From Candidatus Baltobacteraceae bacterium (lineage in GTDB: Bacteria > Vulcanimicrobiota > Vulcanimicrobiia > Vulcanimicrobiales > Vulcanimicrobiaceae), in assembly GCA_035502855.1 (NCBI GenBank), contig DATJTX010000035.1, positions 1-43,233 on the forward strand: a DNA stretch of 43,233 nucleotides, in the 5' to 3' direction. Below the pieces are notes generated by a model, which saw only the letters and a program-made list of their open reading frames with translations, did not search any database and was not told the origin of the DNA. This document shows positions 1 to 20,542 of this stretch, in pieces (within the stretch, counting starts at the first letter, position 1; each line of letters begins with the position of its first letter). The position numbers and the translations under genes are program-made.

Positions 1-114
1 CGCTGCGGGTTTTCGACCCATGCGGACGTCAACGCGGCGCTGGAGATCCGCCGGCGAGCGCAGTTGGCGCTCTCAAGACTCCCGGATACCGGTGCGGAGC
101 CGGTTGCAGCGTAG
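1..114 (+). CDS. tnpB: TnpB C-terminal fragment (cut by window start)
   Basis: The first 37 codons read in one frame to a TAG at 112-114 and carry the end of a TnpB RNA-guided nuclease: the last zinc-ribbon cysteine (RCGF), then HADVNAALEI. In TnpB/OrfB proteins the Asp of this D-x-N-A-A block is the third RuvC-type catalytic acid. The rest of the protein lies before the window. Another tnpB in the same orientation enters the window at its far end. The family is TnpB of IS200/IS605 or IS607 elements; which of the two cannot be told from this fragment. Confidence 0.85.
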   Translation, partial: RCGFSTHADVNAALEIRRRAQLALSRLPDTGAEPVAA

Positions 115-189
115 GATGCGTTGCAAGGCAGTCACAACGAATCCTAATATCGGTAGTTTTTTACCGGCGGAGATGAAGTGAAACGCAGG

Positions 190-239
190 CGGGGCCGTTA
201 AGGTTTTGTTTCGTGCGTTGCATGGGCCAAGCGGCCCCG
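190..239. other. Inverted repeat between tnpB end and the moaD-like gene
   Basis: Perfect 8-bp arms CGGGGCCG (190-197) and CGGCCCCG (232-239) flank a 34-nt loop. A smaller hairpin, CGGTA..TACCG around a T run, lies at about 151-166. The pair could be the right-end structure or omega-RNA region of the upstream TnpB element, or a terminator for the minus-strand operon that ends at 249. The sequence does not decide between these. Confidence 0.35.
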
Positions 240-545: not shown

Positions 546-1657
546 GGCAGCGTCTGTACCTCGACCGAGAGCACGGCCGGAAGATCGCGAACGATCGCGC
601 TCCAGTTCTCGCCGGCATCGGCTGAAGCGTACACCTGGCCGCCGGTCGTGCCGAAGTAGATACCGCACGAATCGAGCGAGTCGACCGCCATCGCATCGCG
701 CAGAACGTTGACGTAGCAATCGCGCTGCGGCAGGCCCGTGGTGAGCGCCTCCCACGCATCGCCGCCGGTGCGGCTGCGGTAGACACGCAGCTTCCCGTCG
801 AGCGGGAAGTGTTCGGTGTCGCTCTTGATCGGAACGACGTAGATCGTCTCGGGTTCGTGTGCGTGCACGTCGATCGGAAAGCCGAAATCGGTCGGCAGAT
901 TGCCGCTGATTTCGCGCCACGAGCCGCCCGCATCGTCGCTGCGCATCACGTCCCAATGCTTCTGCATGAAGAGCACGTCCGGGTGCGAGGGATGCATGGC
1001 GATGCGGTGCACACAGTGGCCGACCTCGGCATCGGGGTCGGGAATTTGGGCGGATTTCAATCCCCGGTTGATAGGACGCCAGGTTTCTCCGCCGTCGTCG
1101 CTGCGAAACGCGCCGGCCGCGGAGATCGCGGTGAAGATGCGCTGCGGATCTTTCGGATCGATCAGGATCGTATGCAGACACATGCCGCCCGCGCCGGGCT
1201 GCCAGCTCGCGCCGGTGTTGTGCGTGCGCAAGCCCGAGAGCTCGCTCCAGGTTTTTCCGCCGTCATTCGAACGGAAGAGTGCCGCGTCTTCGGCACCGGC
1301 GTAGACGGTGTCGGGATCGGCGAGCGAGGGTTCGAGATGCCAGATGCGCTTGAACTCCCACGGACGCGGCGTGCCGTCGTACCACAGGTGCGTACCGGCA
1401 ACGCCGTCGTACGCGAACGCGTTGCCGACCGTTTCCCAGGTCTTGCCGCCGTCATCCGAACGCTGCATCACCTGTCCGTGCCAGCCGGTGCTTTGCGAAG
1501 CGTAGACGCGGTTCGGATCGGCCGGCGACCCTTTTAGATGGTAGATCTCCCACCCGGCGAAGTGCGGGCCGTGGACGCTCCAGTTCTTGCGTTTGCCGTC
1601 GGCTTCGAGGACGAACGCGCCCTTGCGCGTCCCGACCAAAACACGCACGCCGCTCAT
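542..1657 (-). CDS. Asp-box (BNR/sialidase-like) beta-propeller protein
   Basis: A 371-residue protein with six Asp-box repeats, for example [36 protein letters not shown] and SADAGENW. These match the S-x-D-x-G-x-T-W loop of BNR/VPS10/sialidase-type propellers. No signal peptide is seen, so it is probably cytoplasmic. Catalytic residues of a true sialidase (Arg triad, Tyr/Glu pair) cannot be identified, so 'exo-alpha-sialidase' would be an over-call. The gene starts 6 nt after a small LuxR-type gene and overlaps a MoaD-like gene at its end, so the three form one minus-strand operon. Its role is unknown; a scaffold or stress-related function is possible. Confidence 0.8.
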
Positions 1658-1662
1658 CGGCG

Positions 1663-1896
1663 CTACGTCGTGCTAAAGCGGCGGCGAAGGGCACGCTCGC
1701 GCTGTTTGTATACCTTGATGGTCAGTTCCAGGCGCGACGTGGTGCCCGTTTTACGCAAAATGTGCGAGATATGGTTCTTGACGGTTTTGTCGGAAAGGCG
1801 TAGCTTCGAGGCGATCTCCTGATTGCGAAGACCGTTCAGCAGCTTCTGTAATACGTCGCGCTCAGCCGGGCTGAGCGACTCCTCGATTGTCGTCAT
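1663..1896 (-). CDS. Small LuxR-type (GerE) DNA-binding protein
   Basis: A 77-residue protein that is almost entirely a LuxR C-terminal helix-turn-helix: [44 protein letters not shown]. The canonical recognition segment ([14 protein letters not shown]) is intact. It has no receiver or ligand-binding domain, so it is a stand-alone effector domain, usually dimeric or dependent on a partner. It is the first gene of the operon with the propeller and MoaD-like genes and is a candidate local regulator. The ATG faces the divergent small gene at 1999 across about 100 bp. Confidence 0.85.
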
Positions 1897-1998
1897 GACA
1901 CGGGTATTCGCCCCGGATCGCCGTAATCATACCCGTTGGGCTAAAATGACCAGCTAGGCCAAAGTGACCAACCGCAACCGCGCGAGAGGAGAACCGCA

Positions 1999-2187
1999 AT
2001 GCTGAAACCGGGCGATAAGGTCTATATCGACGGAACGCAAGAAGAAGGCGTCGTCAAAGACGTGCATCCGCACGAGGTTACCGTACGCGTCGAGGTTGCC
2101 GGCGGTCACGAACTGCGCAAATACGCGCTGGAGGCGCTGCGCCTCGATCCGACGTTGGGCGAAGTCTCGAAGTTCGTCGACCACTAG
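1999..2187 (+). CDS. Small SH3/KOW-like hypothetical protein
   Basis: A 62-residue protein with a clear ribosome-binding site (GAGAGGAG, about 8 nt before the ATG). The N-terminal half (LKPGDKVYIDGTQEEGVVKDVHPHEVTVRVEV) looks like a small beta-barrel of the SH3/KOW kind: a turn after 'PGD.V' and alternating strands. No motif fixes a function. It stands alone, divergent from the LuxR-type gene and convergent with the toxin gene, whose stop is 4 nt away. Confidence 0.6.
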   Translation: MLKPGDKVYIDGTQEEGVVKDVHPHEVTVRVEVAGGHELRKYALEALRLDPTLGEVSKFVDH

Positions 2188-2191
2188 ACTT

Positions 2192-2584
2192 TCAGAGTGC
2201 TCGCTCCTTAGCCGTGTAATAGACGGAGTCCGGGAATTGGCGATCGCCGAACGCAAGGATTTGGATGCCGCCGTTTCCGGCTGCCCTGAAGATGAGGCGA
2301 AGGTCGGCGGTCTCGCGATTCTTCGACGGAAACTTGCTGCGCCGCCAAGAGTCCAGTTCGCGATCTAGTTCAATCCCAAAATCGCGCGGAGCCGCGAGTG
2401 CGCGTTGGATCTCGCTTGCAACCGCGATAATCGCGCGCGCATACTGCCCATCTTCAGGAAAGGCTCGCCGCAGATTCGCAAGATCCCTGGCAACGTACGC
2501 CGGAACAACGGCAACCCCGGTCGTCCGCAAAACGTCGTAGAAATTCTTCTTAGCATCTGCGGGTTTCGGCGACCTATTCGTCAC
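2192..2584 (-). CDS. RelE/ParE-like toxin of a type II toxin-antitoxin pair
   Basis: A 130-residue protein starting at a GTG that overlaps the end of the upstream gene by 11 bp. The C-terminal third (DLRLIFRAAGNGGIQILAFGDRQ...VYYTAKERL) resembles the last strands of RelE-type toxins, where a Phe-Arg strand, an 'I.ILAFG.R' strand and a terminal 'VY.tA..R' segment recur. The N-terminal half is less familiar. The arrangement of a small basic protein after a Phd-like protein, overlapping it, supports a toxin-antitoxin module. The family is known for mRNA cleavage or gyrase inhibition; which of these applies here is unknown. Confidence 0.6.
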   Translation of the reverse strand: MTNRSPKPADAKKNFYDVLRTTGVAVVPAYVARDLANLRRAFPEDGQYARAIIAVASEIQRALAAPRDFGIELDRELDSWRRSKFPSKNRETADLRLIFRAAGNGGIQILAFGDRQFPDSVYYTAKERAL

Positions 2585-2906
2585 GCGCCGTCAAGTCGTT
2601 ATACTGTCGCTCGATGTCATCGATTACAACCGGCGTAACAGGAACGAAATTCGCGTTAGGTGCCCGGTCTGCAACGATGGTGTGGGCGGCTTGTTCTTCG
2701 TAGCGCTCGATGACCTGTTCAAGTTCGCGCAAGTGCGACTCGATGGCACGCCACGCGTGCGCATCGACGAGCACGCCGATCACGTCACTGCGCCGGCGCA
2801 CCCGAAGCCGATGATGAGCCTCGAGCCGCTTGCGAAGAGTATCCTCCTCACGTAGCTCGCTCAGCGTAATATCTGCGTCTAAGTCGAAGCCCCCTAATGG
2901 TGTCAT
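2574..2906 (-). CDS. Putative antitoxin (Phd/RelB-like)
   Basis: A 110-residue acidic, helical protein placed first in the pair, with a strong ribosome-binding site (GGGAGGAC). The middle contains VRRRSDVIGVLVDAHAWRAI and a Glu/Arg-rich helix, resembling the Phd/YefM 'GVLVs...y..L' segment, where a DNA-binding N terminus is followed by a toxin-wrapping helix. The N terminus (MTPLGGFDLDADITLSELRE) does not match a classical Phd fold closely. The antitoxin call therefore rests partly on gene order, the 11-bp overlap with the toxin and the palindrome in its promoter. Confidence 0.55.
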   Translation of the reverse strand: MTPLGGFDLDADITLSELREEDTLRKRLEAHHRLRVRRRSDVIGVLVDAHAWRAIESHLRELEQVIERYEEQAAHTIVADRAPNANFVPVTPVVIDDIERQYNDLTARDE

Positions 2907-2926
2907 CCGCGTGTCCTCCCGTAAAC

Positions 2927-2955
2927 AGCCTATTCCATCGACAATAAACTGTCAA
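2927..2955 (-). promoter_or_regulatory. Putative promoter/operator of the toxin-antitoxin operon
   Basis: On the minus strand a perfect -35 hexamer TTGACA (2955-2950) is followed after 17 bp by TAGGCT (2932-2927, a weak -10). The -35 is half of a near-perfect inverted repeat TTGACA-6-TGTCGA (2955-2938). This is a likely site for autoregulation by the toxin-antitoxin complex, as is usual for such operons. Confidence 0.45.
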
Positions 2956-3012
2956 CATACCGCCAGGGCAAGTGCGTGAGAACTCGCCTACGCTGAGGGG
3001 GCAACGGTGGAT

Positions 3013-3083
3013 GCGGCCCCTCGACTCCGCGTAGCGGAGCCTGTCCTGAGCGAGCGCAGCGAGTCGAAGGGCTCGGGATGACA
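3013..3083. repeat. REP-like palindromic repeat (CCCTCGACTC..GAGTCGAAGGG)
   Basis: Outer arms CCCTCGACTC and GAGTCGAAGGG enclose a perfect small hairpin CTCCGC-GTA-GCGGAG and the segment CTGAGCGAGCGCAGC. The unit ends with GGGATGACA, and a second partial copy (GCTCGCGATGACA) follows. This is the most complete copy in the window of a short dispersed repeat. It lies between argB and the antitoxin promoter and could also act as a 3' structure for argB. Confidence 0.75.
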
Positions 3084-3088
3084 AAGCG

Positions 3089-3958
3089 CTACGCTCGCGA
3101 TGACAACGTAACGACGGTGGCGTTGCCGGCGAGGGCGGCGGCGAGCGGTTGCGGACCGCAGATGTAGGTCGCCGTGGCGCCGGATTCGACTGCGGCGATC
3201 GCGGCCTGCATTTTCGGAAGCATGCCGCCTTCGCAGGCGGGCGAGTTCACGAACGCGCGCGCCTCTTCGAGCGTGAGCCGATCGATGCCGCTAGCCGGAT
3301 CAGCCGCATCGCGGCGCACGCGTTCGACGTTGGTGATCACGACGAACGCGCGCGCGTGCAGTGCGCCTGCGAGCGCCGCAGCGGCGAGGTCGGCGTTGAC
3401 GTTGTAGGGATGCGCGTTGTCTTCGGCCGTGGCGAGCGGCGCGACGATCGGCAGATAGCCGGTCGCGAGCAAGGTATTGATGAGCGCGGGATCGCAGCCG
3501 GCAACTTCGCCGACGTAGCCGAGATCCTCACCGTGCGATCCATGCGCGCGCGTCGCGACGAGCGTTCCGGCGTCTTCTCCGCTGATGCCGACCGCGCGCG
3601 CGCCGAGCGCACTGCACGCGCGCACGAGCCGTTTGTTGATCGTCGCGCACAGCACCGCTTCGGTAATCTCGAGCGTCGCCGCGTCGGTGACCCGCAAGCC
3701 GTCGACCCGCCGGGTCGGCACCCCGCGTAGGTCGAGCCAGCGGTCGATCTCGGGACCGCCTCCGTGGACGAGCACGACCGGCGTGCCGCCTTGGTGGAGG
3801 GCGACGAGCTCGGCCAGGATGGGATCCCCCTTCGACAAGCTCAGGGTGACAGGGGGGGAGCTCGGGGTGACAGAGGCCCCCCCTACACCAAGAGCGTTGC
3901 CGCCGTACTTGACGACCACCGGACCAAAGGCCGAGGGGGTTGCATAATTATGCTCCAT
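3089..3958 (-). CDS. argB: Acetylglutamate kinase
   Basis: Phosphorylates N-acetylglutamate with ATP, the second step of arginine synthesis, in the cytoplasm. The 289-residue reading from ATG 3958 has the nucleotide-binding KYGGNALG, the substrate loop VLVHGGGPEID, the C-terminal NVNADLAAAALAGAL region and GGMLPKMQAA. Upstream in-frame ATGs would run through the argF promoter and are unlikely. The gene is divergent from argF with only 19 bp between start codons and no visible Shine-Dalgarno sequence, so a leaderless message is possible. Residues between KYGGNALG and ILAELVALH include VTLSLSKGD, the translation of a REP-like repeat inserted in frame. The loop is about 14 residues longer than in the E. 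coli enzyme. Confidence 0.95.
   Translation of the reverse strand: MEHNYATPSAFGPVVVKYGGNALGVGGASVTPSSPPVTLSLSKGDPILAELVALHQGGTPVVLVHGGGPEIDRWLDLRGVPTRRVDGLRVTDAATLEITEAVLCATINKRLVRACSALGARAVGISGEDAGTLVATRAHGSHGEDLGYVGEVAGCDPALINTLLATGYLPIVAPLATAEDNAHPYNVNADLAAAALAGALHARAFVVITNVERVRRDAADPASGIDRLTLEEARAFVNSPACEGGMLPKMQAAIAAVESGATATYICGPQPLAAALAGNATVVTLSSRA
3821..3889. repeat. REP-like repeat inside argB
   Basis: The stretch from GATCCCCC to CCCCCCTACACC contains CTTCGACAAGCTCAGGGTGACA followed by a second GCTCGGGGTGACA unit, matching the dispersed repeat family seen at 3013 and 36661. It keeps the argB frame open and encodes part of a surface-loop-like segment near the N terminus. Confidence 0.8.
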
Positions 3959-3977
3959 ATGTATAAATATACAAGCA
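3940..3977. promoter_or_regulatory. argB/argF divergent promoter with two ARG-box-like palindromes
   Basis: A perfect 12-bp palindrome GCATAATTATGC (3942-3953) and a second one, TGTATA-AA-TATACA (3960-3973), have centres 19 bp apart. ArgR/AhrC operators are AT-rich palindromes, often paired about two helical turns apart, and argR is the second gene downstream. The same AT-rich block is the only -10-like sequence for either gene and lies within a few bases of both start codons. Repression of both directions by ArgR with arginine is the natural inference. Confidence 0.65.
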
Positions 3978-4952
3978 ATGCCTTCCATCGCGCCAGCCCG
4001 CGGCAATACCCTGCGCGGGCGCAACATACTCGAGATCACGGACTTCTCGCCCGGCGAGTTGGCCGCGCTGCTCGCTCTGGCCCGCTACCTCAAGGCCGTT
4101 CCCGGCACCGAGGTGCGCACGCTCCTGCGCGGCCGCACCCTGATGCTGCTCTTCGAGAAGCCCAGCCTGCGCACGCGCGTATCCTTTGAAGTAGCGATGC
4201 AGCAGCTGGGCGGCCAGACGCTCTTTGCCGCCGGCAACGAGTTCATGATCGGGAGCCGCGAGACGCCCGAGGACGCGGCCCGCGTCCTCTCGCGCTACGT
4301 CGATGCGATCGTGGTGCGCACGCACGAGCACGCGCCGCTCACCCGTTTCGCCCATTCGGCCACGGTGCCGGTGATCAACGGCCTCTCGGCGGTTGCGCAT
4401 CCGGCGCAAGCACTGGCCGATCTGCTTACCATCGAAGAGCGCTTCGGCACCGTCGAAGGGCTGACCATCGCCTACGTGGGCGACGGCAAGAACAACGTCG
4501 CGACCTCGCTCGCGCAAGCTGCGGTGATGCTCGGCGCGGTCGTGCACTTCGGTGCGCCACCGACCCATCGTCCGACCGAAGCGACGCTGACGCTCCTCAA
4601 CAAACTGGGCGAAGCCGCCGGCGGGAACGCGCGCGCGTTCACCAATCCGATTCGCGCGGTGCGCGGCGCCGACGTGATCTATACCGACGTGTGGACGTCG
4701 ATGGGCGAGGAGCGCTATCGCGAACGCAACGATGCGATGCTGCGTCCCTATTCCGTGACCGAAGAGCTGCTTTCGTACGCGCAGCCGCATGCGGTGTTCA
4801 TGCACTGCCTGCCGGCGCATCGAGGCGAAGAAGTCAGCGCCGCCGTGATCGACGGTTTGCGCAGCGCCGTCTTCGATCAGGCCGAGAACCGTTTGCACGC
4901 GCAGAAGGCGCTGCTCGTGGCCTTGCTTACCGACGCCAAAGGAATGTTGTAG
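3978..4952 (+). CDS. argF: Ornithine carbamoyltransferase
   Basis: Transfers the carbamoyl group to ornithine to give citrulline. The 324-residue protein shows the carbamoyl-phosphate loop FEKPSLRTRVSFE (Leu in place of the commoner Thr of STRTR), HPAQALADL, TDVWTSMGEE and the ornithine-binding HCLPAHRGEEV. Together these separate it from aspartate carbamoyltransferase and from acetylornithine carbamoyltransferase. ATG 3978 is the first start after the AT-rich operator region and has no Shine-Dalgarno sequence. It opens the seven-gene plus-strand arginine operon; argR follows after 2 nt. Confidence 0.96.
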   Translation: MPSIAPARGNTLRGRNILEITDFSPGELAALLALARYLKAVPGTEVRTLLRGRTLMLLFEKPSLRTRVSFEVAMQQLGGQTLFAAGNEFMIGSRETPEDAARVLSRYVDAIVVRTHEHAPLTRFAHSATVPVINGLSAVAHPAQALADLLTIEERFGTVEGLTIAYVGDGKNNVATSLAQAAVMLGAVVHFGAPPTHRPTEATLTLLNKLGEAAGGNARAFTNPIRAVRGADVIYTDVWTSMGEERYRERNDAMLRPYSVTEELLSYAQPHAVFMHCLPAHRGEEVSAAVIDGLRSAVFDQAENRLHAQKALLVALLTDAKGML

Positions 4953-11419: not shown

Positions 11420-11533
11420 GCCTTGGGGTACATGTAGTTTGGCCTGCTCACGCGGCTGCAAATAGCTACTCACGCTTGTGGCAGAATGCGGATAGATAGG
11501 AACGATCTCGTAATTCGGCTAAAGCGTAATCCA

Positions 11534-11617
11534 GCGGGATGGAGCTTCCGTCTAACCGCCGAAAACGGCTAATGGCTCCTATCAAGATGAGCACCGTAGT
11601 CTTGACAGGAGTTTTTT
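11534..11617 (+). promoter_or_regulatory. Fluoride (crcB-motif) riboswitch 1
   Basis: The aptamer (11534-11580) reads GGGATGGAGC..CCGTCTAACCGCC-GAAAA-CGGCTAATGGCTCCT. It has the GATG and ATGG-CTCC blocks, the GCCG/CGGC hairpin and the GGAGC/GCTCC P1 stem of crcB-motif RNAs; usual CTGATGG is CTAATGG here. The 3' strand CTCCT (11576-11580) can instead pair in a hairpin, CTCCTATCAAGA (11576-11587) with TCTTGACAGGAG (11600-11611), followed by six T: an intrinsic terminator. AGGAG in its 3' arm is also the ribosome-binding site of the gene at 11619. Fluoride binding should hold CTCCT in P1 and turn the gene on. Confidence 0.9.
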
Positions 11618-11618
11618 C

Positions 11619-11930
11619 ATGCGCAAGGCTTCATCGCGGTCCAAGATCGAGCATCCGAGACGGTCGGCCGTCGTCGCGGCCGTGCTCAGGCTGCTCCTCA
11701 CATTGTCCGGAATGGGCTGCGCGATTGTGTTTAAAGAAGGTTTCGTCGCCATCGTTTCGGTGCTCGCATCGTATTTAATCCCCGTCGGCGGCTATCGCGT
11801 TCTGCGGGTGCAGGCCGTTGCGCTGGCCGCTATGGGCGCCTACGTATATACCGCGGTATCGCACGGCAGCGGAGAAGTCTTTTTCATCGTGGGCGCCGGA
11901 TTATGTCTTGGCGCGATGGCGCAACGTTGA
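11619..11930 (+). CDS. Fluoride-riboswitch-controlled small membrane protein
   Basis: A 103-residue basic-start protein with three likely membrane helices (about residues 18-38, 42-58 and 63-100, the last possibly two short helices). The start ATG lies 7 nt after AGGAG, which is part of the riboswitch hairpin. It does not look like CrcB/Fluc, which has about 125 residues, four helices and conserved Asn and Phe-box residues, and it is far too short for CLC-F. The family is not recognised. Control by a fluoride riboswitch makes a role in fluoride export or membrane protection a reasonable inference, without proof. Confidence 0.8.
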   Translation: MRKASSRSKIEHPRRSAVVAAVLRLLLTLSGMGCAIVFKEGFVAIVSVLASYLIPVGGYRVLRVQAVALAAMGAYVYTAVSHGSGEVFFIVGAGLCLGAMAQR

Positions 11931-12019
11931 GCGTTCACTGAATCGATTGCGCGCGCCTTGGATCACCGGTGCAGGGCATGCGAAGGGCGCAGCGGTCGTC
12001 AGTAAGAACACGCTACCAA

Positions 12020-12098
12020 CGGGGATGGAGCACCCCCTCGAACCGCCAATAATCGGCTGATGGCTCCTGGCCGGATCCGCTAAGCCAGGAGCTTTTTT
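12020..12098 (+). promoter_or_regulatory. Fluoride (crcB-motif) riboswitch 2
   Basis: The aptamer (12020-12068) has GGGGATGGAGC..CCCC, then AACC-GCC-AATAATC-GGC-TGATGGCTCCT: the canonical CTGATGGCTCC block, the GGGG/CCCC pairing and the GGAGC/GCTCC P1 stem. The competing hairpin is CTCCTGGC (12064-12071) with GCCAGGAG (12084-12091), followed by C and six T, directly before the ATG at 12099. As in copy 1 the terminator's 3' arm carries the AGGAG ribosome-binding site. This is the closest of the three to the consensus. Confidence 0.93.
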
Positions 12099-12749
12099 AT
12101 GTCACAACGCTCGCCGATGGGCGATCTTTTCGACGACCTTTGTCACGCCGAGGAAGCGGCGCGTGAACGGCTCCTCGCGGGCTGCGCGGATGACGCGATA
12201 AAGATCGAGCGCTACTTTAACCGCCCGCTGGAAATCGCCAAACGCAGTGCTCGCAATACCATGGCCGGCATGGGATTCTTGGAGGATGTGGATCTCGCGG
12301 CGGGCCTGCGCCGGGAGGCGTTCGAGCGTATCGGAACAGTCTGCGCCGATTCCATCTGCTCGAAGGCCGCGTTGCGCGTGCGCGCGCGGTTCCGCATTTA
12401 CGCGGATGAGATTGCCAACGCCGAAGATCGCATCGCTGACGCCATTGCCGCGTCGCGTCTTGTTCACGTAGAGCGCATCTTTCCGCGCATGTTCTCGATT
12501 GGATGGATTGACTTCGACAATCTGCATATCCCTGATCCTCCGGGCGACGATGCCGCCATCGACGATTGGATCGAGCATCTGCGCCGCGCCGTCGGCGAAG
12601 AACTTGCCGCGAGTACGAAGCGTGCAGTCGGCGAGGTGCTCGAACAGGGATATGCTCGGCTCGGCGTGATCAAGTCGTGCATCGATGCCACGCTCCGAGC
12701 TCTACGTCGCACGGCGCAAGCGGAAATCTCCCACGTGGGACAGGTATGA
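12099..12749 (+). CDS. Fluoride-riboswitch-controlled protein of unknown function
   Basis: A 216-residue, soluble-looking, strongly alpha-helical protein with no signal peptide or membrane segment. It is rich in Ala, Arg, Asp and Glu, and its four cysteines are scattered (no metal-site spacing). A central segment IFPRMFSIGWIDFDNLHIPDPPGDD separates an N-terminal helical half from a C-terminal helical hairpin (EELAASTKRAVGEVLEQGYARLGVIKSCIDATLRALRR). I do not recognise the family. The start is fixed by riboswitch 2, whose hairpin ends at this ATG. The last codon overlaps a possible 24-codon ORF. Confidence 0.8.
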   Translation: MSQRSPMGDLFDDLCHAEEAARERLLAGCADDAIKIERYFNRPLEIAKRSARNTMAGMGFLEDVDLAAGLRREAFERIGTVCADSICSKAALRVRARFRIYADEIANAEDRIADAIAASRLVHVERIFPRMFSIGWIDFDNLHIPDPPGDDAAIDDWIEHLRRAVGEELAASTKRAVGEVLEQGYARLGVIKSCIDATLRALRRTAQAEISHVGQV

Positions 12750-12830: not shown

Positions 12831-12923
12831 CGGGCGGTGGAGTTCGCCCGTGACGTACGTGTCGCAAACTGCCGTAGGGCCGATGACTCCTGACAATCAC
12901 GCGTATCGTATTGTCAGGAGCAT
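12831..12923 (+). promoter_or_regulatory. Fluoride (crcB-motif) riboswitch 3, translational type
   Basis: The aptamer begins at 12831 with GGGCGGTGGAGTTCGCCC, has an extra 16-nt segment, then AAACT-GCC-GTAG-GGC-CGATGACTCCT. The P1 stem is GGAGT/ACTCC where copies 1 and 2 have GGAGC/GCTCC, a compensatory change. GATG is GGTG here. The competing hairpin is a perfect CTCCTGACAAT (12887-12897) with ATTGTCAGGAG (12910-12920); no T-run follows. Its 3' arm contains AGGAG, the ribosome-binding site for the TTG start at 12924. Control is therefore more likely at translation initiation, for the first gene of the Hyf-like operon. Confidence 0.87.
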
Positions 12924-13883
12924 TTGTTGATCTTACACCCGATAGCGGTGCAGGCGGCCCAGGTATTGACTCTCCTGCTGCTCTCACCGCTGCTCACGGG
13001 ATGTATCGCGCGCGCCGAAGCCGTCATTGCCGGCAAGCGTGGCCCGTCGATTTTCCAGACGTACCGCGACATCCTGAAGTTTTTTCGGAAGCAACCGCTT
13101 ACACCGGAGCCCTCGTCGTGGGTTTTCCGAACGGCCCCGTATGTGGCGTGTGCGTGCTATGCGACGATCGCAACGCTGATCCCGGTCCTCACCACGTACC
13201 CGTTGCCCGGCGCCACCTTCGGCGACATTCTCGGCGGCGCGTTCCTCTTCGCTCTCGCGGGTTTCGCAACGGCGCTTGCCGGAATCGACTCGGGTTCGGA
13301 ATACGCGCAGATCGGCAGCAGCCGTGCGACGATGGTCGGCATCCTCGTCGAGCCTACGCTGATCTTCGTATTTTTCTCGGTTGCCTTTATCACAGGAACC
13401 GATCTGCCGTACGCGATGAACGCCGCGCTTCGCGACTCCGCGGCCAACGTGCTTCGCCCAGCGCACGTGCTCGCGACCGCGGCCTTTTTCATGATGATGC
13501 TAGTGGATACCGGACGCATACCGATCGAAAGTTCGTCAGCGACCATCGAATTCGGCATGATCGACGATGCGCGCACGTTTGAGCATTCCGGCCCGTGGAT
13601 GGCCCTCTTCAAGTGGAGCTCGTCCATGAAGCAATTTTTGCTCTATACAATTTTCGTCAACGTGTTGCTGTTGCCGATGGGTTTATCGTCAAGCGGTAGC
13701 GTCGGGTCAGTAGCGCTCGCGGTTGTGACGCTCTTCGGAAAGATGCTGATCGTCGGCGCGGTTGTGGCTGCTATCGAGACGACGTTCGCGAAATTGCGCT
13801 TGTACAAGATTACCGAATTCATCGCAACCGGTCTGCTCATCGCCATCCTGGCGGTCTTCGCCTATGCGGTGGGGTTCGGATGA
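12924..13883 (+). CDS. hyfC: HyfC/NuoH-like membrane subunit
   Basis: A 319-residue, roughly eight-helix protein of the HyfC/HycD/NuoH family, which anchors the peripheral arm of hydrogenase-4-type complexes and complex I. Family hallmarks are GKRGPSIFQTYRDILKFFRK, IGSSRATMVGILVEP, DTGRIPIESSSATIEFGMID and FEHSGPWMALFKWSSSMKQ. Two acidic positions usually seen in HyfC are changed: GSSRE is GSSRA, and ALxEW is ALFKW. The start is TTG at 12924 (12927 possible), 4-7 nt after the riboswitch hairpin's AGGAG. It is the first gene of a run in which each stop overlaps the next start. Confidence 0.88.
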   Translation: MLILHPIAVQAAQVLTLLLLSPLLTGCIARAEAVIAGKRGPSIFQTYRDILKFFRKQPLTPEPSSWVFRTAPYVACACYATIATLIPVLTTYPLPGATFGDILGGAFLFALAGFATALAGIDSGSEYAQIGSSRATMVGILVEPTLIFVFFSVAFITGTDLPYAMNAALRDSAANVLRPAHVLATAAFFMMMLVDTGRIPIESSSATIEFGMIDDARTFEHSGPWMALFKWSSSMKQFLLYTIFVNVLLLPMGLSSSGSVGSVALAVVTLFGKMLIVGAVVAAIETTFAKLRLYKITEFIATGLLIAILAVFAYAVGFG

Positions 13884-14551
13884 CGCTTCATCAACTCACT
13901 GTTCCTGAGGCGTTCGCCGGGACGATCGCGATGCTGCTGCTCGTCGTGCAACTCACGCTGTTCCGTTCCGTCGTGATCTCCGAGTTCATCCGAGTGTACG
14001 CTATCCAGGCTTGGCTCGTTGCCGCGATTTGCCTGGGGGTCGGCGTTACCGAGGGTGGCTGGGACCTCGTCGCCCTGGCTATGCTGACGCTGCTGTTCAA
14101 AGGCATCCTTTTGCCACGATACATGCAGCGGCTCGCTCGCGGTATCTCGGCGCGCATCGAGCTGCCGGCGCGTATAAACGTGCGGATTTCGTTGCTCATT
14201 GCCGGGGTGCTTATCGGCGTTTCGATCCTTACGTCGATTCAACTGCCGTTGCATCAAGGCGCTTTCTTACCCAAAGCGGATCTTGCAACCGCGCTATCGA
14301 TGGTTTTCATCGGTTTTCTCGTCGCGATTCTCCGACCAAATGCACTCGCGCAGGTCGTCGCGTTTCTCACACTGGAGGATGGTCTGTTCTTCGGAACCAT
14401 CACGCTCGCACCGGGGCTCCCGTTTATCATCGGTATCCTTCTCTTGATCGATGTGCTCGTTGCGGTGGTCGTATTCGCCGTTTTGGTCCGGGCCTTGGTC
14501 GGGCAGCGAGCCGCCGCCTCCGTGCACGTCTTCGAAACGCTCCGCGGATGA
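13880..14551 (+). CDS. hyfE: HyfE-like membrane subunit
   Basis: A 223-residue protein with about six to seven membrane helices, matching HyfE: an N-terminal NuoK-like part with FRSVVISEFIRVYAIQAWLVA, a basic loop RYMQRLARGISARIELPARINV, and the typical NALAQVVAFLTLEDGLFF segment near residue 165. HyfE sits between the HyfC anchor and antiporter-like subunits in the membrane arm. It starts at the ATGA overlap with the preceding gene and overlaps the next in the same way. Confidence 0.87.
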   Translation: MTLHQLTVPEAFAGTIAMLLLVVQLTLFRSVVISEFIRVYAIQAWLVAAICLGVGVTEGGWDLVALAMLTLLFKGILLPRYMQRLARGISARIELPARINVRISLLIAGVLIGVSILTSIQLPLHQGAFLPKADLATALSMVFIGFLVAILRPNALAQVVAFLTLEDGLFFGTITLAPGLPFIIGILLLIDVLVAVVVFAVLVRALVGQRAAASVHVFETLRG

Positions 14552-15993
14552 ACGCCCTACCGACGGCGATCATCGCCATTCCCGTTGCGGCCGTCATTTT
14601 TTCGCTCGTCCTACCGTCTCGGGTAGGCCGCGTGGTGACCGGCATCGCCGGCGTCGCGACCGCGGCCTGCATTGGTGCCGTCGTCTTTCTCACCGCGAAC
14701 GAAAACTCGCACATCGATGCGCTCTCCGCGCTTTTTCTAATCCCGGTTGGAATCGTCTACGGGGCGGTCGGTATCTACAGCACGTGGTACGTTCGTGCAG
14801 AATCCATTGGAGCGGACGGTGACGAACGCTACCGACGCGAATTCCTCGCGTTGACCAACGCCTTCGCTTGCGCGGAAGCGCTGGTGCCGCTCTTGACGAA
14901 CATGGCCGGGCTCTGGGTGACGCTCGAGGTGACGACGATCGTCGCCGCGCTTTTGGTTCGTTTGCAGGGTACGGACGCGTCGCTCGAAGCCGCGTGGAAG
15001 TACATTCTCATCGCTTCATGCGGCTTGGCCGTTGGTTTGATCGGCGTGGTCGTTCTCTACGCCTCGGGTACGAGCGTACTGGGTTCATACTACACACCCG
15101 ATTGGGCGAACTACATGTCCGTCGCCACGAAGCTAGACGTCGACGCGGTGCGTCTTGCGTTCCTGCTCGCGCTGATTGGATTCGGAACAAAGATGGGCCT
15201 TGCTCCGATGCACACCTGGCTGCCGGACGCACACGGCGCCGGCCCGACGCCGACCAGCGCAATGCTTTCGGGCGTGCTGCTTTCCGACGCGCTCTATATC
15301 ATCACCCGCTTCGCGTCGATCACGAACGCCGCTATCGGCCCCGGCATGACGCGACATCTCTTTTTTATCGTCGGACTGCTCTCGCTCTTCGTCGGCGCCT
15401 TCTTCCTCCTATATCAACGCGATATTAAGCGTATGCTCGCCTATTCGAGCATCGAGCACATGGGCATCGTGGCGTGCGGCCTCGCATTCGGAGCGCGTAT
15501 TGCGGTCATCGGGGCGCTGCTGCACGTCGTCAATCACGCGGCGACCAAAGCGCTCGCGTTCTTGGGCGCCGGGCGCCTCGCTGCGCGCTTCGAAACGCGC
15601 GATATCGCAGGTATCACCGGCGGCGTCGCCGTGCTCCCGATCTCCGGCACGCTGTTCGCGCTCGCGGGACTGGCACTCGCCGGCATGCCGCCCTTTGGTG
15701 TCTTTCGCAGCGAGTTGATGATTCTGAGCGGAGGATTCGGCGGCAGCACATGGCCGATCGCCGCAATCGTGCTCGGCCTACTATTGGTTGCGTTCGCCGG
15801 ACTTGTTCGCTGGACGACCGGTGTGACGGCAGGTATGCCGCCGGGGGGTGTGCGTCGCGGTGAGCGAGATATCGGTGCTATTGCGTCGATGCTGCTGGCG
15901 TTTGCCGTCGTCCTCGGTCTCGGTCTCTATGTACCAGCTCATCTCGGAGTTCTGCTCGATCGTGCAGGCGATATCGTCGGAGGTCATCCATGA
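14548..15993 (+). CDS. hyfF: HyfF-like antiporter-type membrane subunit
   Basis: A 481-residue, about 14-helix protein of the NuoL/M/N-MrpA/D superfamily, closest to HyfF. It keeps the TM5 glutamate (E127 in WVTLEVTTIVAALLV), AAWKYILIASCG, the LAPMHTWLPDAHG loop, YQRDIKRMLAYSSIEHMG and the helix-12 lysine HAATKALAFLGAG. These residues form the half-channels for proton translocation in the family. The TM8 position where related proteins often carry Lys reads GVLLSDALY. ATG 14548 overlaps the hyfE stop. The membrane path thus looks largely intact although the peripheral arm has lost its cofactor ligands. Confidence 0.88.
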   Translation: MNALPTAIIAIPVAAVIFSLVLPSRVGRVVTGIAGVATAACIGAVVFLTANENSHIDALSALFLIPVGIVYGAVGIYSTWYVRAESIGADGDERYRREFLALTNAFACAEALVPLLTNMAGLWVTLEVTTIVAALLVRLQGTDASLEAAWKYILIASCGLAVGLIGVVVLYASGTSVLGSYYTPDWANYMSVATKLDVDAVRLAFLLALIGFGTKMGLAPMHTWLPDAHGAGPTPTSAMLSGVLLSDALYIITRFASITNAAIGPGMTRHLFFIVGLLSLFVGAFFLLYQRDIKRMLAYSSIEHMGIVACGLAFGARIAVIGALLHVVNHAATKALAFLGAGRLAARFETRDIAGITGGVAVLPISGTLFALAGLALAGMPPFGVFRSELMILSGGFGGSTWPIAAIVLGLLLVAFAGLVRWTTGVTAGMPPGGVRRGERDIGAIASMLLAFAVVLGLGLYVPAHLGVLLDRAGDIVGGHP

Positions 15994-17381
15994 GCGGACC
16001 GATCGCACACAGCAGCATACAAACCGCGACGGAGCGACGTGTCCAAGAAGGTGCGCGCCTGGCATGGATCTTTGGCGACCGCGTCGGTTCGGACGTGGTA
16101 CTCCACTACGTCGTGGATCGCGATGGTAAACTGCATGACGAATCGTCAGCGGTATACGATTCCGTCCGTTCGATCAGCGGTCAAGTGCCTGCCGCCGATT
16201 GGTACGAGCGGGAAATCGCGGAGCGCTTCGGCGTCCGCTTCCAGGGCCTAACCGAAAACCGGCCGTTAGTGAAGGTAGTTCCTGCGGAACTTCTGATGCG
16301 GGTCGAGTCCCCCGAGGTGTCGACGGTATTATACGGACCGGTACGATCCGGCATCGTTGAGTCGGTCCGATGGATCGTGGAGACCGCGGGCGAGGACTTC
16401 ATCGACGTCTACCCGTCGATGTTCTTCAAACATCGCGGGCTCGAGGAGCGCTTCATTGGCGCACCGATCGAACTCGCACCGTTCGTGGCGGAGCATGCTT
16501 CCGGCGCGACGGCGTCGAGTCACGCGGCCGCGTTCGCCTGCGCAGCCGAAAGCGCGATGGGAATTGAGGTGCCGAGCCGCGCTCGTGCTACGCGAGCCGT
16601 CTTGGTAGAACTCGAGCGCGCCCACCAGCACCTCGATTCACTCGCCAAACTCGCCGAAGACGGCTCGTTGGCGGTCGGTTCCGCGCAGGTCTTTGCGGCG
16701 AAGGAACGCGTGCATCGGATCCTCTGCGACGCGACCGGCAACCGCTTTGCACGCGGGGTGATTTGCGTCGGTGGAACGCGCTTCGACGTGCTCGAGCGCC
16801 TGCGCGAGACCTGCGCACGAGACCTCGACGTCGCGGAGAATCACGCACGTACTGCGGTCGACCGGCTGATCAATACCCAGTCGTTCATGGACCGCCTCAT
16901 CGGCACCGGAAGGCTTTCGCGCGAGCTCGTGGTGCGGCATGGCGGGGTCGGCCCTGTTGCACGTGGCAGCGGCGTCCCGTGCGACGTACGTACGCTCGAT
17001 GGGTACCTATTCACTCCGCTCGCCGGCGAGGAAGCCTTGGAGGACAATGGCGACGCAGCGTCGCGGGCACTGGTACGCGTTGCCGAGCTTCAACGCTCGT
17101 ACCAACTCGTGCGTAACGCACTCGACGCCGATCCGGGTGGTCCTTACGCCGTTCCCGTGGAGCTGCGCGACGGCAGTGCCATCGCGCGCATCGAGTCGCC
17201 TCAGGGGGAGTTGCTCTACTTCGTGCGTATCTCGGACGGCGCGCTTGCGCGCGTGGCGGTCCGATCGGCGTCCTATGCGAATTGGCCGCTTTTCGTGCCA
17301 TCGCTTCCGGGAAACATCTTTACGGACTTCTCGTTCATCGAGCATTCCTTCGCTTCGTCACAGTCGGAAGTGGACCGATGA
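15990..17381 (+). CDS. NuoC-NuoD/HyfG-like large subunit without NiFe ligands
   Basis: A 463-residue fusion of a NuoC-like N-terminal domain (WYEREIAERFGVRFQG, about residues 68-85) and a NuoD/hydrogenase-large-subunit-like domain. In HycE/HyfG the first metal motif is E-R-x-C-G-x-C-x-x-x-H-S; here the aligned segment is EHASGATASSH (residues 168-178), so both cysteines are Ser171 and Thr174. The neighbouring AAFACAAESAMGIEVP and LVELERAHQHLDSLA confirm the alignment. The C terminus ends FSFIEHSFASSQSEVDR, with no DPCxxC motif, resembling the complex I-like ending GEVDR. It cannot bind a NiFe centre. This loss is known in Ehr complexes and complex I. Confidence 0.88.
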   Translation: MSGPIAHSSIQTATERRVQEGARLAWIFGDRVGSDVVLHYVVDRDGKLHDESSAVYDSVRSISGQVPAADWYEREIAERFGVRFQGLTENRPLVKVVPAELLMRVESPEVSTVLYGPVRSGIVESVRWIVETAGEDFIDVYPSMFFKHRGLEERFIGAPIELAPFVAEHASGATASSHAAAFACAAESAMGIEVPSRARATRAVLVELERAHQHLDSLAKLAEDGSLAVGSAQVFAAKERVHRILCDATGNRFARGVICVGGTRFDVLERLRETCARDLDVAENHARTAVDRLINTQSFMDRLIGTGRLSRELVVRHGGVGPVARGSGVPCDVRTLDGYLFTPLAGEEALEDNGDAASRALVRVAELQRSYQLVRNALDADPGGPYAVPVELRDGSAIARIESPQGELLYFVRISDGALARVAVRSASYANWPLFVPSLPGNIFTDFSFIEHSFASSQSEVDR

Positions 17382-18118
17382 GCTGGATCGGATACGGGTT
17401 GCGGCGGGGCGTATTGACGACGCGTTATCCACTAGGCGATGATACGATGCCGCCGGATTATCGGGGTGAAATCGAGACGCTGCAGGTTGGCCGCGAAGAG
17501 GCCGCCGCGGCGGCAGCAGGATGCCTGTCCAACGCCATTTCCGCCGACGAAAGGCCGCGGGTAGATGGACTGCGCTGCTTCCAATGCGGACAATGCACGC
17601 GTGTAGCGCCGCGCGCGTTCGTCGCGCGTAGCCATTTCGAACTCGCGCGGCTGGCGGAGCCGGCGGACCAGACGTTCCGCAGTCTCCGCGATCGCGCTCG
17701 CGCGTTCGGCCGCTCGGTGCACCTTCGACACGTCGACGCGGGAAGCGACGGATCCGAGGAACAGGAGTTGGCGGCCATCTTCAATCCGTTCTACGATGCC
17801 AATCGCCTCGGTATTTTCCTCACGGCGACGCCGCGCCACGCGGACGTGCTAATCGTGAGCGGCGTCGTGACCAAAGCGATGGCCGATCCGCTGCGGCGCA
17901 CATACGAAGCAATGCCGGACCCGAAGGTCGTCGTGGCGTTAGGTACCAGCGCCTGCTCCGGCGGCATCTTCGCAGATTCTCCACACGTCGTCGGGCCGGT
18001 CAGCACTCTGCTTCCGGTCGACGTGCTCATTCCGGGAGCGCCGCCCTCACCGCTGACGATTCTGCACGGCCTGTGGGTTGCGCTCGGGCACATGCTTGCG
18101 CGGGATGCGGCGTCATGA
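17378..18118 (+). CDS. HyfH-HyfI fusion (NuoI+NuoB-like) with ablated Fe-S sites
   Basis: A 246-residue protein. Residues 8-85 match HyfH/HycF: LRRGVLTTRYPLG, then a degenerate first ferredoxin motif (R39, A42, A45, C49, followed by SNAI) and a second one with C67, C70, C73 but Ala77 for the last Cys. Residues 115-240 match HyfI/NuoB: GSCNGCDIE of the family is GSDGSEEQE (Asp124, Glu127), GTC is GTS (Ser191, with Cys193 nearby), and PGCPP is PGAPP (Ala221). All four proximal [4Fe-4S] ligands are gone. Framework sequence (HADVLIVSGVVTKAM, PKVVVALGT, LPVDVLIPG) is well kept, so this is a maintained protein and no decaying pseudogene. Confidence 0.87.
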   Translation: MSWIGYGLRRGVLTTRYPLGDDTMPPDYRGEIETLQVGREEAAAAAAGCLSNAISADERPRVDGLRCFQCGQCTRVAPRAFVARSHFELARLAEPADQTFRSLRDRARAFGRSVHLRHVDAGSDGSEEQELAAIFNPFYDANRLGIFLTATPRHADVLIVSGVVTKAMADPLRRTYEAMPDPKVVVALGTSACSGGIFADSPHVVGPVSTLLPVDVLIPGAPPSPLTILHGLWVALGHMLARDAAS

Positions 18119-20094
18119 TGACATTGCTGGTTGCACTCGCGCTTTGTGCCCTCGGAACGCTATTCTCAGTCATCGTGCCGTCCGCATTCGGACGTCTTTG
18201 CGGCTTTTTGCTAATGGGTGCGGCCGGCGTCGCCGCGGTGCTCGCATCGCTTCAAGGTTTGAGCGCAGGAACGCAATCGATCGGCTTCGCGGCTGCACAA
18301 ACCCACCTATTGCTCAGGCTGGATCCAACGAGTGCCTTCTTCGTGGGCGTACTCGGCGTCGTCGCAATGCTCGTCTCGCTCTACGGTTTGGGTCCGCGTA
18401 CGACCGACGAGCGCCGCACCGGTCGTGCCGCATCCGCGACCGCGTGCGCAATCCTCTTCGCCTCCATCCTCGCCTGCGTCGCTGACGACGTGTTGCTCTT
18501 CATCTTTGCATGGGAACTGCTGGCCCTCACCTTCTACTGGGCTATCGCCTACTCGGGCACAGACCCAAAATCTCCGAAGGCGGCGTACGTGACCATCGTT
18601 GTGACCCACATCGCGGGCGCGTGCATCGTCGCTTCGCTACTGTTCCTCGCGCACGTTGCAGGCAGTTTCGAAGTGGAAGCGGTCGTTGCAGCGGGCGCAC
18701 GCACCACCGGCGTCGCGGCCGGAGTGCTTCTAATGCTGCTGCTGGTCGGCTTCGGCGCCAAGTTCGGGATGTTGCCGATGCAGGTATGGATGCCCTATGG
18801 CTATCGCTCGGCGCCGTCGGTCGTCGCGGCGCTGATGGCCGGCGGAGCGCTTAATGTCGGGTTCTACGGCGTCACGCGATTCATCGTCGGGTTTCCCGAC
18901 GCGCCTCTCTGGCTCGGCATCGTCGCCATCGGCGTAGGAGCGATCACCGCGTTCTTTGGTATTGCGTGGGCATCTTCACGGCGTGACATGCGCCGGCTTG
19001 CTGCGTACTCGAGCGTTGAAAACGGCGGCATTATCCTCGCCGCATTCGGCGTCGCGATCGCCGGCGGTGCGTTGCACGACCGCATGCTGGTCGGCTTCGC
19101 GATCGCTGCGGCGTTGGTACAGATCGCCGCGCATGCCGCCGCCAAGACGACGCTCTTCCTTTCGATCGCCTCGATCGGTGACGCGTGCTCCACGCTCAGC
19201 TTCGATGCACTCGGCGGCCTCTCGCGCCGCTTGCCGGTCGTATCGGTCGTTGTTCTCATTTGCGGCATGTCGCTCGCCGCGCTCCCGCCGCTTGCCGGAT
19301 TCGTCGGGGAGTGGCTGGTACTCGAATCGCTCATGCAGGCGTTCCGCACCGGAAACGTCACAAGCGAAGTCGCATTCGCGCTCGGAGGCGCCGTCATCGG
19401 CGTGGCGGCGGGCATTGCAGTTGTGACGTTCACGAAGTTCGTCGGCATCGGCGTCCTGGGCGCCGATCGTGCCGAACGAGTGCCATCGCATGGCGCGAAA
19501 TCCCCGTGGCGCCATGCCGGATTGGTCATCGGCGCCGCATGCGTCATCTGCATCGGCGTATTCGCGATCTCGTTGCTCCGATTGGTCGCGCCCTCGATCG
19601 ACGGGATCGCGGAGGTGCCGGCGACGCAGGCGATGATAGGTTCGTTTCCACTCGTGCAGCCGACGTTCGCGGGCTTCTCGTCCATATCACCTAGCGGACT
19701 CTGCATCGTGCTCTGCGGCTTCACCCTGATGTTCTGGATCATCGCTCGTTTGATCTCTCGTCCGCGCGGACGATACGCCTCGACCTGGACGTCGGGTGAG
19801 CCATACCGCCCGTGGACGCAGTACACCGGCACGGGTTACGCGAATCCGACCCGCGTGATTCTCGACGCCGCGGTGCGGACCGTACGGGACACGCAGGCGT
19901 CGGCGCGCGGATACGCGAGCGAAATACGCCCGTTCTTCGACCTACGGTTTTACGAGGTGCTGGCGAAGCCGTTTATCGCCGTCGGCGCATTGGTGCGAAC
20001 CACGCAATCCGGCGTTATCGCCGCGTATCTTTCGTACATCCTCGTCTTCACCATCCTCATGTTGGTGCTGTTTCCTTCCATCCGGCATTGGTAG
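18115..20094 (+). CDS. hyfB: HyfB-like antiporter-type membrane subunit
   Basis: A 659-residue protein, similar in size to E. coli HyfB, with about 16 membrane helices. Antiporter-superfamily motifs: FAWELLALTFYW (TM5 Glu), GFGAKFGMLPMQVWMPYGY (TM7 Lys), SSRRDMRRLAAYSSVENGG and HAAAKTTLFLSIAS (helix-12 Lys). The TM8 region MAGGALNVGFYG carries Asn where HyfB/NuoM usually have Lys, and WLPYAH is WMPYGY. The C terminus has the HyfB-type amphipathic tail (STWTSGEPYRPWTQYTGTGYANP...IRPFFDLRFYEVLAKPF). The start overlaps the preceding gene. The HyfA iron-sulfur protein and formate dehydrogenase gene of true formate hydrogenlyase operons are absent. Confidence 0.88.
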   Translation: MMTLLVALALCALGTLFSVIVPSAFGRLCGFLLMGAAGVAAVLASLQGLSAGTQSIGFAAAQTHLLLRLDPTSAFFVGVLGVVAMLVSLYGLGPRTTDERRTGRAASATACAILFASILACVADDVLLFIFAWELLALTFYWAIAYSGTDPKSPKAAYVTIVVTHIAGACIVASLLFLAHVAGSFEVEAVVAAGARTTGVAAGVLLMLLLVGFGAKFGMLPMQVWMPYGYRSAPSVVAALMAGGALNVGFYGVTRFIVGFPDAPLWLGIVAIGVGAITAFFGIAWASSRRDMRRLAAYSSVENGGIILAAFGVAIAGGALHDRMLVGFAIAAALVQIAAHAAAKTTLFLSIASIGDACSTLSFDALGGLSRRLPVVSVVVLICGMSLAALPPLAGFVGEWLVLESLMQAFRTGNVTSEVAFALGGAVIGVAAGIAVVTFTKFVGIGVLGADRAERVPSHGAKSPWRHAGLVIGAACVICIGVFAISLLRLVAPSIDGIAEVPATQAMIGSFPLVQPTFAGFSSISPSGLCIVLCGFTLMFWIIARLISRPRGRYASTWTSGEPYRPWTQYTGTGYANPTRVILDAAVRTVRDTQASARGYASEIRPFFDLRFYEVLAKPFIAVGALVRTTQSGVIAAYLSYILVFTILMLVLFPSIRHW

Positions 20095-20101
20095 GTGTCA
20101 T

Positions 20102-20542
20102 ATGTTCTCTCACATCATCATCGCTTGGGACGGATCCGATCACGCAAGGCGCGCATTCGAATACGGGGTCGGCATCTCCGAAAAGTTCGGAGCGCGATTG
20201 CAACTGGTCTCGGTTGCGCGTCACACCGAGCACGCGGAGACGCAAGACGAAAGGCAAGACTCCCGAAGAAAAGCACGACACTTCTACGAAGCGGCCGCCG
20301 CCGAGCTCATCGAGTCCGGAAAGAGACGCGGAGTCAAGGCGGAGTTGCTGATCGTCGAGGGCGGTCACCCGGCCGAAGCGATCGTGGATACGGCGCGCAA
20401 AGTCGGCGCTGACCTCATCATCGTTGGCCGGCGCGGACTCTCGGGCATGACGCGATTTCTGATGGGAAGCATCTCCGATCGCATCGCCCGTTACGCCCAC
20501 TGCCCGGTACTCGTAATCGATGGGTTTGCGACGCCGCCCTAA
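20102..20542 (+). CDS. Universal stress protein (UspA family)
   Basis: A 146-residue single-domain Usp. It begins FSHIIIAWDGSDHARRAFEYGVGIS and has the nucleotide-binding signature GRRGLSGMTRFLMGSIS (G-2x-G-9x-G-S), then ARYAHCPVLVI. Members with this motif bind ATP or AMP. It starts 7 nt after the hyfB-like stop with no promoter space, so it belongs to the fluoride-regulated operon. UspA genes have been noted elsewhere among genes behind crcB-motif RNAs, which supports the operon assignment. Confidence 0.93.
   Translation: MFSHIIIAWDGSDHARRAFEYGVGISEKFGARLQLVSVARHTEHAETQDERQDSRRKARHFYEAAAAELIESGKRRGVKAELLIVEGGHPAEAIVDTARKVGADLIIVGRRGLSGMTRFLMGSISDRIARYAHCPVLVIDGFATPP

Follow-up and report, generated by a model that had tools for sequence, protein, structure and literature searches.

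The fused HyfH-HyfI subunit encoded in the window, by which we mean the whole 43,233-nucleotide stretch analysed here, retains one complete [4Fe-4S] ligand set and has lost the ligands of a second ferredoxin cluster and of the proximal cluster. The large subunit encoded beside it has none of the four Ni-Fe cysteines. The fusion is the fifth gene of a six-gene operon, HyfC-E-F-G-HI-B (12924-20094), whose leader carries a fluoride riboswitch aptamer. Taken together, the cluster and metal losses, the intact pump arm and the fluoride switch suggest a transporter for fluoride survival, not a hydrogen enzyme.

Iron-sulfur ligands of the fused subunit

As the original prediction held, the HyfH-like and HyfI-like parts form one chain; it is 246 aa long (Table 1). 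The match of the N-terminal part to HycF/NuoI-type sequences is weak (E 5e-5), residues 129-232 are assigned by Pfam to PF01058 (E 6.6e-24), and the nearest relatives of the C-terminal part among solved structures are MbhJ (E 1.3e-32) and HycG (E 3.8e-30). The Pfam single-cluster model Fer4_13 stays below its cut-off in the window fusion; in the plasmid homologue L106, both Fer4_15 and Fer4_13 score above cut-off. AlphaFold2, run on the window fusion with eight orthologues, gave a mean pLDDT of 50.6, too low to interpret.

We compared the fusion with the fused proteins found in the phylum, 34 including the window's own: 13 of group A (the window's version and its orthologues), 15 of the sister group B, five of group F and one, X (L105), from another family of the phylum. 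Five plasmid homologues were also examined among 246 plasmid records with a match. A contig scan by only two short peptide patterns gave eight matches, which set no bound on the distribution and coincide with contigs from eight of the 13 A genomes.

The ferredoxin-part residues R39, A42, A45, C49, C67, C70, C73 and A77 read as originally given, but their grouping, with one of four ligands kept for cluster I and three of four for cluster II, is wrong. Each motif of a two-cluster ferredoxin lends its fourth Cys to the other cluster. By this crossed rule, C49, C67, C70 and C73 would all ligate one [4Fe-4S] cluster, and the lost positions would be the other cluster's four. By analogy with NuoI, we take the kept cysteines to be the N6b-type set and the positions of R39, A42, A45 and A77 to be the N6a-type set. 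In the alignment, all 34 fused relatives have the full N6b-type set, a family-wide retention of four cysteines as in a single-cluster [4Fe-4S] ferredoxin. The N6a-type set has no Cys at all in 28 of the 34 (A and B) and is complete in six (F and X), where the first Cys of the motif adjoins alignment column 39 and was taken from the motif itself. Among the 13 A orthologues, C49, C67, C70 and C73 are the only invariant Cys columns. The crossed-ligand assignment fits this all-or-none pattern, the 34 relatives being mutually related and hence not independent.

The proximal (N2-type) cluster has no canonical Cys in the window, in agreement with the original prediction, and its positions read D124, E127, S191 and A221. 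Acidic residues had been placed exactly at the CxxC; this stands for position 124, which is Asp in 13/13 A orthologues, but not throughout for position 127, which is Glu in nine and Cys in four. Nine of the 13 therefore have none of the four proximal ligands and four have one (Cys127). Position 191 drifts (S in seven, A in four, T in two), as does position 221 (A in five, T in four, S in two, M in two), and since both vary, we rejected a site mended by Asp/Glu. Cys193 was likewise rejected as a substitute ligand, being Cys in just 9 of 13. All four proximal ligands are present in the B and F fusions (20 of 20 proteins). L105 (G131:C9, about 1288-2328, minus strand), the X-type fusion, falls outside the fluoride-linked clade; both of its ferredoxin ligand sets are intact, but all four proximal ligands are gone, which reads as a further loss, independent of that in A.

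The fused relatives L042 and L101-L104 retain all 12 cysteines, so the fusion predates the cluster losses and is ruled out as their cause. The gene is not decaying, as had been argued: the 13 orthologues keep frame and framework without stops, and the proposed dN/dS check indicates purifying selection, with values of 0.20, 0.28 and 0.21 for three close pairs of one genus and below 0.32 in each half (simple Nei-Gojobori counts; saturation is close in more distant pairs). We thus rejected a pseudogene or an artefact of sequencing. Two further parts of the original prediction are not supported, namely a cofactor-free scaffold, since every member has one full [4Fe-4S] ligand set, and replacement of ligands one by one, since entire clusters are what disappears along the tree. 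The complete N6b-type set, the purifying selection and the kept pump residues described below together argue against both decay and a cofactor-free scaffold.

Table 1 Features of the window and of related loci (positions refer to the window unless a locus is named)
Feature	Position	Strand	Remarks
Second fluoride riboswitch	11526..11588	+	43.2 bits; precedes 103-aa membrane-like ORF 11619-11930
Third fluoride riboswitch	12012..12076	+	44.0 bits; precedes 216-aa ORF 12099-12749, family unassigned
Fluoride riboswitch aptamer RF01734	12824..12899	+	35.7 bits, gathering 34; operon leader
Leader hairpin CUCCUGACAAU / AUUGUCAGGAG	12886..12926	+	-18.7 kcal/mol, z -5.95
HyfC/NuoH-like subunit	12924..13883	+	TTG start at 12924 or 12927
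HyfE-like membrane subunit	13880..14551	+	NF008556, E 3.2e-15
HyfF/NuoM-N-like antiporter-type subunit	14548..15993	+	TM5 Glu127, TM7 Lys215, TM12 Glu389 kept
HyfG/HycE-like large subunit (NuoC+NuoD-like)	15990..17381	+	Ni-Fe Cys positions are Ser171, Thr174, Ser457, Glu460
HyfH-HyfI fusion gene	17378..18118	+	single open frame, ATG 17378 to stop 18118, 246 aa
Fusion parts	residues ~1-95; ~106-239		ferredoxin-like N-terminus; NuoB-like C-terminus
Kept Cys codons	C49 17522-17524, C67 17576-17578, C70 17585-17587, C73 17594-17596	+	full [4Fe-4S] set, taken as N6b-type
Former proximal ligand positions	D124 17747-17749, E127 17756-17758, S191 17948-17950, A221 18038-18040	+	
HyfB/NuoL-like antiporter-type subunit	18115..20094	+	TM5 Glu134, TM7 Lys216, TM12 Glu399 kept; TM8 Lys replaced by Asn247
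Universal stress protein (PF00582)	20102..20542	+	directly after operon
EHFELQ-motif family	L036 4909-5343, L096 4774-5079, L111 2077-2415, L121 1169-1540	+	~100-144 aa
EHFELQ-motif family	L033 15100-15414, L098 5644-5949, L087 18899-19231, L041 16248-16610	-	~100-144 aa
~190-220 aa family	window 12099-12749, L033 15845-16471, L115 4507-5157, L121 1537-2178, L114 2785-3354	+	
~190-220 aa family	L031 3780-4352, L087 18247-18909, L041 15591-16244	-	

Operon, membrane arm and former Ni-Fe site

From HyfE through HyfB, each start overlaps the preceding stop by 4 bases, and the whole six-gene operon is retained across A where contigs allow. HyfB and HyfF both match PF00361 (E 2e-43 and 6.5e-51, respectively). 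TM5 Glu, TM7 Lys, HxxxK and TM12 Glu, the pump residues examined, are present in A in 13/13 HyfB and in 12/12 readable HyfF sequences (13/13 for the TM12 Glu). In place of the TM8 Lys, HyfB has Asn in 13/13 A and Asn, Thr or Ser in 14/14 of the sister group B. Mean pairwise identity within A is 77% for HyfC, the most conserved of the five subunits compared, 67% for HyfF, 61% for HyfG, 60% for the fusion and 55% for HyfB. Pfam and profile annotation found no further recognised redox subunit in the operon. Homologous universal stress protein ORFs also lie downstream of the operon in L033, L036 and L039. L087 (G080:C148) carries the fusion and large-subunit genes of both types, A and B, arranged in tandem on one strand.

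In the large subunit, none of the four Ni-Fe positions is Cys in A (13/13), F (5/5) or X (1/1). Among 14 B rows, 12 of them readable at all four positions, there is no complete set, and L093 has one Cys; the four plasmid homologues have no Ni-Fe Cys, or one (L106). Of the 31 large subunits aligned from the fluoride-linked clade, 29 of which could be read at all four positions, none carries the set, and none has more than a single cysteine of it. The pair of CxxC Ni-Fe motifs by which a group 4 [NiFe] hydrogenase is recognised is absent from the window's large subunit. The S-type large subunits from other operons (L043-L047) keep all four Ni-Fe cysteines in 5/5 (CGxC, NLCYAC); HypD was not found in three of their five genomes (G006, G011, G028).

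The edge of the former active site is conserved in A, with Ser171, Gly172, His178 and Glu460 in 13/13 and Thr174 in 12/13. At the positions that we take to be those of the complex-I quinone residues, the His varies in A (H/R/K/Y) and the Tyr is Gly in 13/13. The window's genome also has a separate canonical NuoB and a canonical NuoD (L048), the latter with both quinone His and Tyr. The complex resembles complex I in its NuoB/C/D/H/L/M-like subunits and in the ExDR C-terminus of its large subunit, as in NuoD, and differs from it in having no N2 ligands, quinone Tyr or NADH-module subunits in the operon; the combination of N2 ligands and quinone-site His/Tyr that marks complex I is missing.

The closest solved relatives for most subunits are E. 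coli HycE/HycG/HycF (7z0s) and Pyrococcus MBH (6cfw). Unlike the A complex, both keep the Ni-Fe and proximal ligands, and HycF and HycG are separate chains. Passages of PMC6349859 describe Ehr complexes as group-4-hydrogenase-like; their membrane subunits resemble antiporters, and Ni-Fe ligands are lacking. The A complex is similar in that it lacks the Ni-Fe ligands (13/13) and has Mrp-like antiporter subunits in its operon. It is different in lacking the proximal and one ferredoxin cluster, in having HyfH and HyfI as one chain, and in the fluoride riboswitch upstream. Described Ehr members usually have a proximal (N2-like) cluster in their redox chain, and this cluster is absent in A. We regard the complex as a variant of Ehr-type complexes; group 4 hydrogenases and complex I are its wider relatives.

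Fluoride riboswitches and the history of the losses

Rfam identifies three fluoride aptamers in the window, each upstream of a same-strand ORF. The RF01734 match in the operon leader scores above the gathering threshold, as in a fluoride regulon, and its 3' end lies 25 nt before the HyfC start codon. One arm of the hairpin CUCCUGACAAU / AUUGUCAGGAG is the aptamer 3' end, and the other contains the Shine-Dalgarno AGGAG (12916-12920). The same layout recurs in L037, L086 and L089 and is less clear in the other five leaders inspected. Such a design would fit a fluoride ON switch. The ORF behind the second aptamer (11619-11930, plus strand) has no Pfam match and could be an unrecognised exporter.

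We then surveyed 147 genomes of the phylum, taking distances from Rfam matches in the genomes that hold the loci and counting an aptamer if it lay on the same strand and at most 600 nt upstream of HyfC. Loci with no usable HyfC start or upstream region were dropped (L090 in A; L092, L034 and L097 in B), and the L087 B operon was left out. An aptamer precedes 12/12 testable A operons, nine at 24-103 nt and three at 482-557 nt with a small ORF between, and 9/11 testable B operons, with none for L032 and L099 among the matches listed. Before the five F, one X and five S operons there is none (0/11 among the matches listed), giving Fisher p 2.7e-7 for A/B against the other hydrogenase-like operons, with kinship ignored. 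Seven of the 12 A aptamers (23.9-33.5 bits) and four of the nine B aptamers score below the Rfam gathering score, and the loci in G140, G147 and G131 have no aptamer match at the gathering threshold. The window's genome has seven aptamers among the matches listed, three in the window and four near its B operon. Aptamers are also present at all four of the long plasmid homologue loci (Burkholderia and Mycobacterium among their hosts); the Rhizobium plasmid homologue is unfused, has the N2 ligands and has no aptamer.

The tree supports clades A (100/98), B (100/99) and A+B (97/91), with F and X outside. The Mycobacterium branderi plasmid homologue, which joins A (99/93), is aptamer-linked and has the N6b set but neither the N6a set nor any proximal Cys. 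Burkholderia and Caballeronia join A+B+Mycobacterium (91/92) and keep all Fe-S ligands, but not those of Ni-Fe. The N6a loss maps to the A+B part of the tree, and support is low (87/53) for the branch that would assign it to one common ancestor of A, Mycobacterium and B. Loss of the proximal set requires two changes, one in the A lineage and one independent of it. Per fusion, there are three Fe-S ligand sets in Burkholderia, two in B and one in A.

Additionally, we scanned 40 proteins from ORFs at most 600 nt behind other aptamers. These included NUDIX, DUF190, MutS-like, enolase and metallophosphoesterase proteins, together with dynamin-like proteins, cyclopropane synthase, universal stress protein and several unknowns. 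An operon of enolase, uspA, ppaC and crcB is described in part of PMC5533749 as a tested fluoride operon of Enterobacter cloacae. Two uncharacterised families also recur here (Table 1), each without a Pfam match in four members scanned. One is a small, coiled-coil-like family with an EHFELQ motif behind fluoride aptamers, which lies between aptamer and HyfC in L033, L036, L096 and L098; the other, of about 190-220 aa, includes a window ORF and has several members directly behind a fluoride aptamer. Upstream of the B operon of L096, a HyfB-type antiporter gene (2629-4671, plus strand) closely follows a separate fluoride aptamer and a NUDIX-like ORF, and in L039 a fluoride aptamer (13030-13091, plus strand) lies directly 5' of a Mutator-type transposase.

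Possible function of the complex

Our preferred reading, which we hold with slightly better than even confidence, is that the complex is an ion transporter, induced by fluoride and no longer coupled to redox, which defends pH and proton-motive force. The riboswitches are the strongest pointer to this function. According to passages of PMC11139923, HF uptake lowers both, and Na+/H+ antiporters are the second commonest class linked to fluoride riboswitches. Fluoride docking in the aptamer would let its 3' end free the ribosome site, and the complex would be made when fluoride enters the cell as HF. With no electron path to the old active site, the membrane arm would work as a proton or cation/proton transporter, restoring cytoplasmic pH and proton-motive force or expelling fluoride indirectly. 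The soluble arm would serve as a structural cap or gate, and the lone [4Fe-4S] cluster would be structural or a redox sensor, not a component of a wire. The chief argument is a comparison: the Burkholderia, B and A complexes are aptamer-linked and have a common gene set, yet differ in holding three, two and one Fe-S sets, so that a shared task should not need the wire; this argument presumes that fluoride control means one function. Beside the loss of the Ni-Fe set, the kept pump residues, the high conservation of HyfC and the fluoride-regulon genes near other aptamers, we also count for this reading that HypD was not found in 8/13 A genomes, the window's included (it is present in five). Against the transporter stand the large soluble arm and the one cluster kept under selection, which hints at an electron or sensing role. 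The loss of the HyfB TM8 Lys also weighs against it, as does the fact that most A leader aptamers score below gathering.

The complex might still be a redox pump, in which electrons enter the N6b-type cluster and pass to a quinone or small-molecule acceptor in the vacated proximal cavity. This is possible, but we consider it unlikely. The N6b set kept in every fused relative, the conserved edge of the former active site and the intact membrane arm are all compatible with it, but the complex-I quinone residues are not kept in A, the operon brings no other recognised redox subunit, and the electron jump from N6b to the old site is presumably long.

The CrcB family was not found in 8/13 A genomes, among them the window's, which is 96.6% complete, and the window genome's single CLC reads GREGP and has a long tail at its end, features that we take to be unlike a fluoride-type CLC. 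Both points, and the location of all seven aptamers of this genome (among the matches listed) near the A operon or its sister, would agree with a complex that itself moves fluoride, by F-/H+ exchange or HF extrusion, and replaces the usual exporters. We nevertheless judge this distinctly improbable. CrcB is present in the other five A genomes, the antiporter-type subunits, in which we know of no halide signature, retain their proton/cation residues, and some of the small ORFs that follow other aptamers could encode exporters not yet recognised as such. It is very improbable that the complex is a remnant kept only for assembly with another complex such as the same genome's B-type sister, because, despite the tandem A and B operons on one strand of L087 in G080 and B-type fusions in G000, G021, G028 and G080 among the matches listed, the other 9/13 A genomes have no B-type fusion among those matches, selection is purifying and every operon is whole as far as its contig permits.

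A stronger form of the transporter reading, a redox-free, fluoride-induced exporter or proton-coupled defence transporter that lost its cofactors one cluster at a time, kept its pump and serves as the main fluoride defence where CrcB is absent, is put forward tentatively and must be called doubtful.

Genes annotated as 'formate hydrogen lyase' occur in fluoride-riboswitch regulons (Baker et al. 2012, as cited by PMC11139923), and passages of PMC11139923 place them among the commonest fluoride-riboswitch genes and explain them by anaerobic fermentation. The link is thus already published; in open-licence PMC full text, we found no prior work tying these genes to missing Ni-Fe or Fe-S ligands. 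The operon described here shares their regulatory RNA and probably their gene set. Since the 31 large subunits of the fluoride-linked clade lack the Ni-Fe Cys set, a role in formate hydrogen lyase or fermentation is unlikely, and to judge from the sequences, the 'formate hydrogenlyase' genes of fluoride regulons are probably not hydrogenases. With one operon, the question of what they do becomes testable. In one branch, spanning two phyla, the clusters leading to the Ni-Fe site have been dropped too, and both losses point to a transporter. The complexes with three, two and one Fe-S ligand sets form a natural series for asking whether a complex I-type pumping arm can work without redox chemistry, and if the stronger, redox-free form of the transporter reading is true, this superfamily's membrane arm is capable of useful transport without redox drive.
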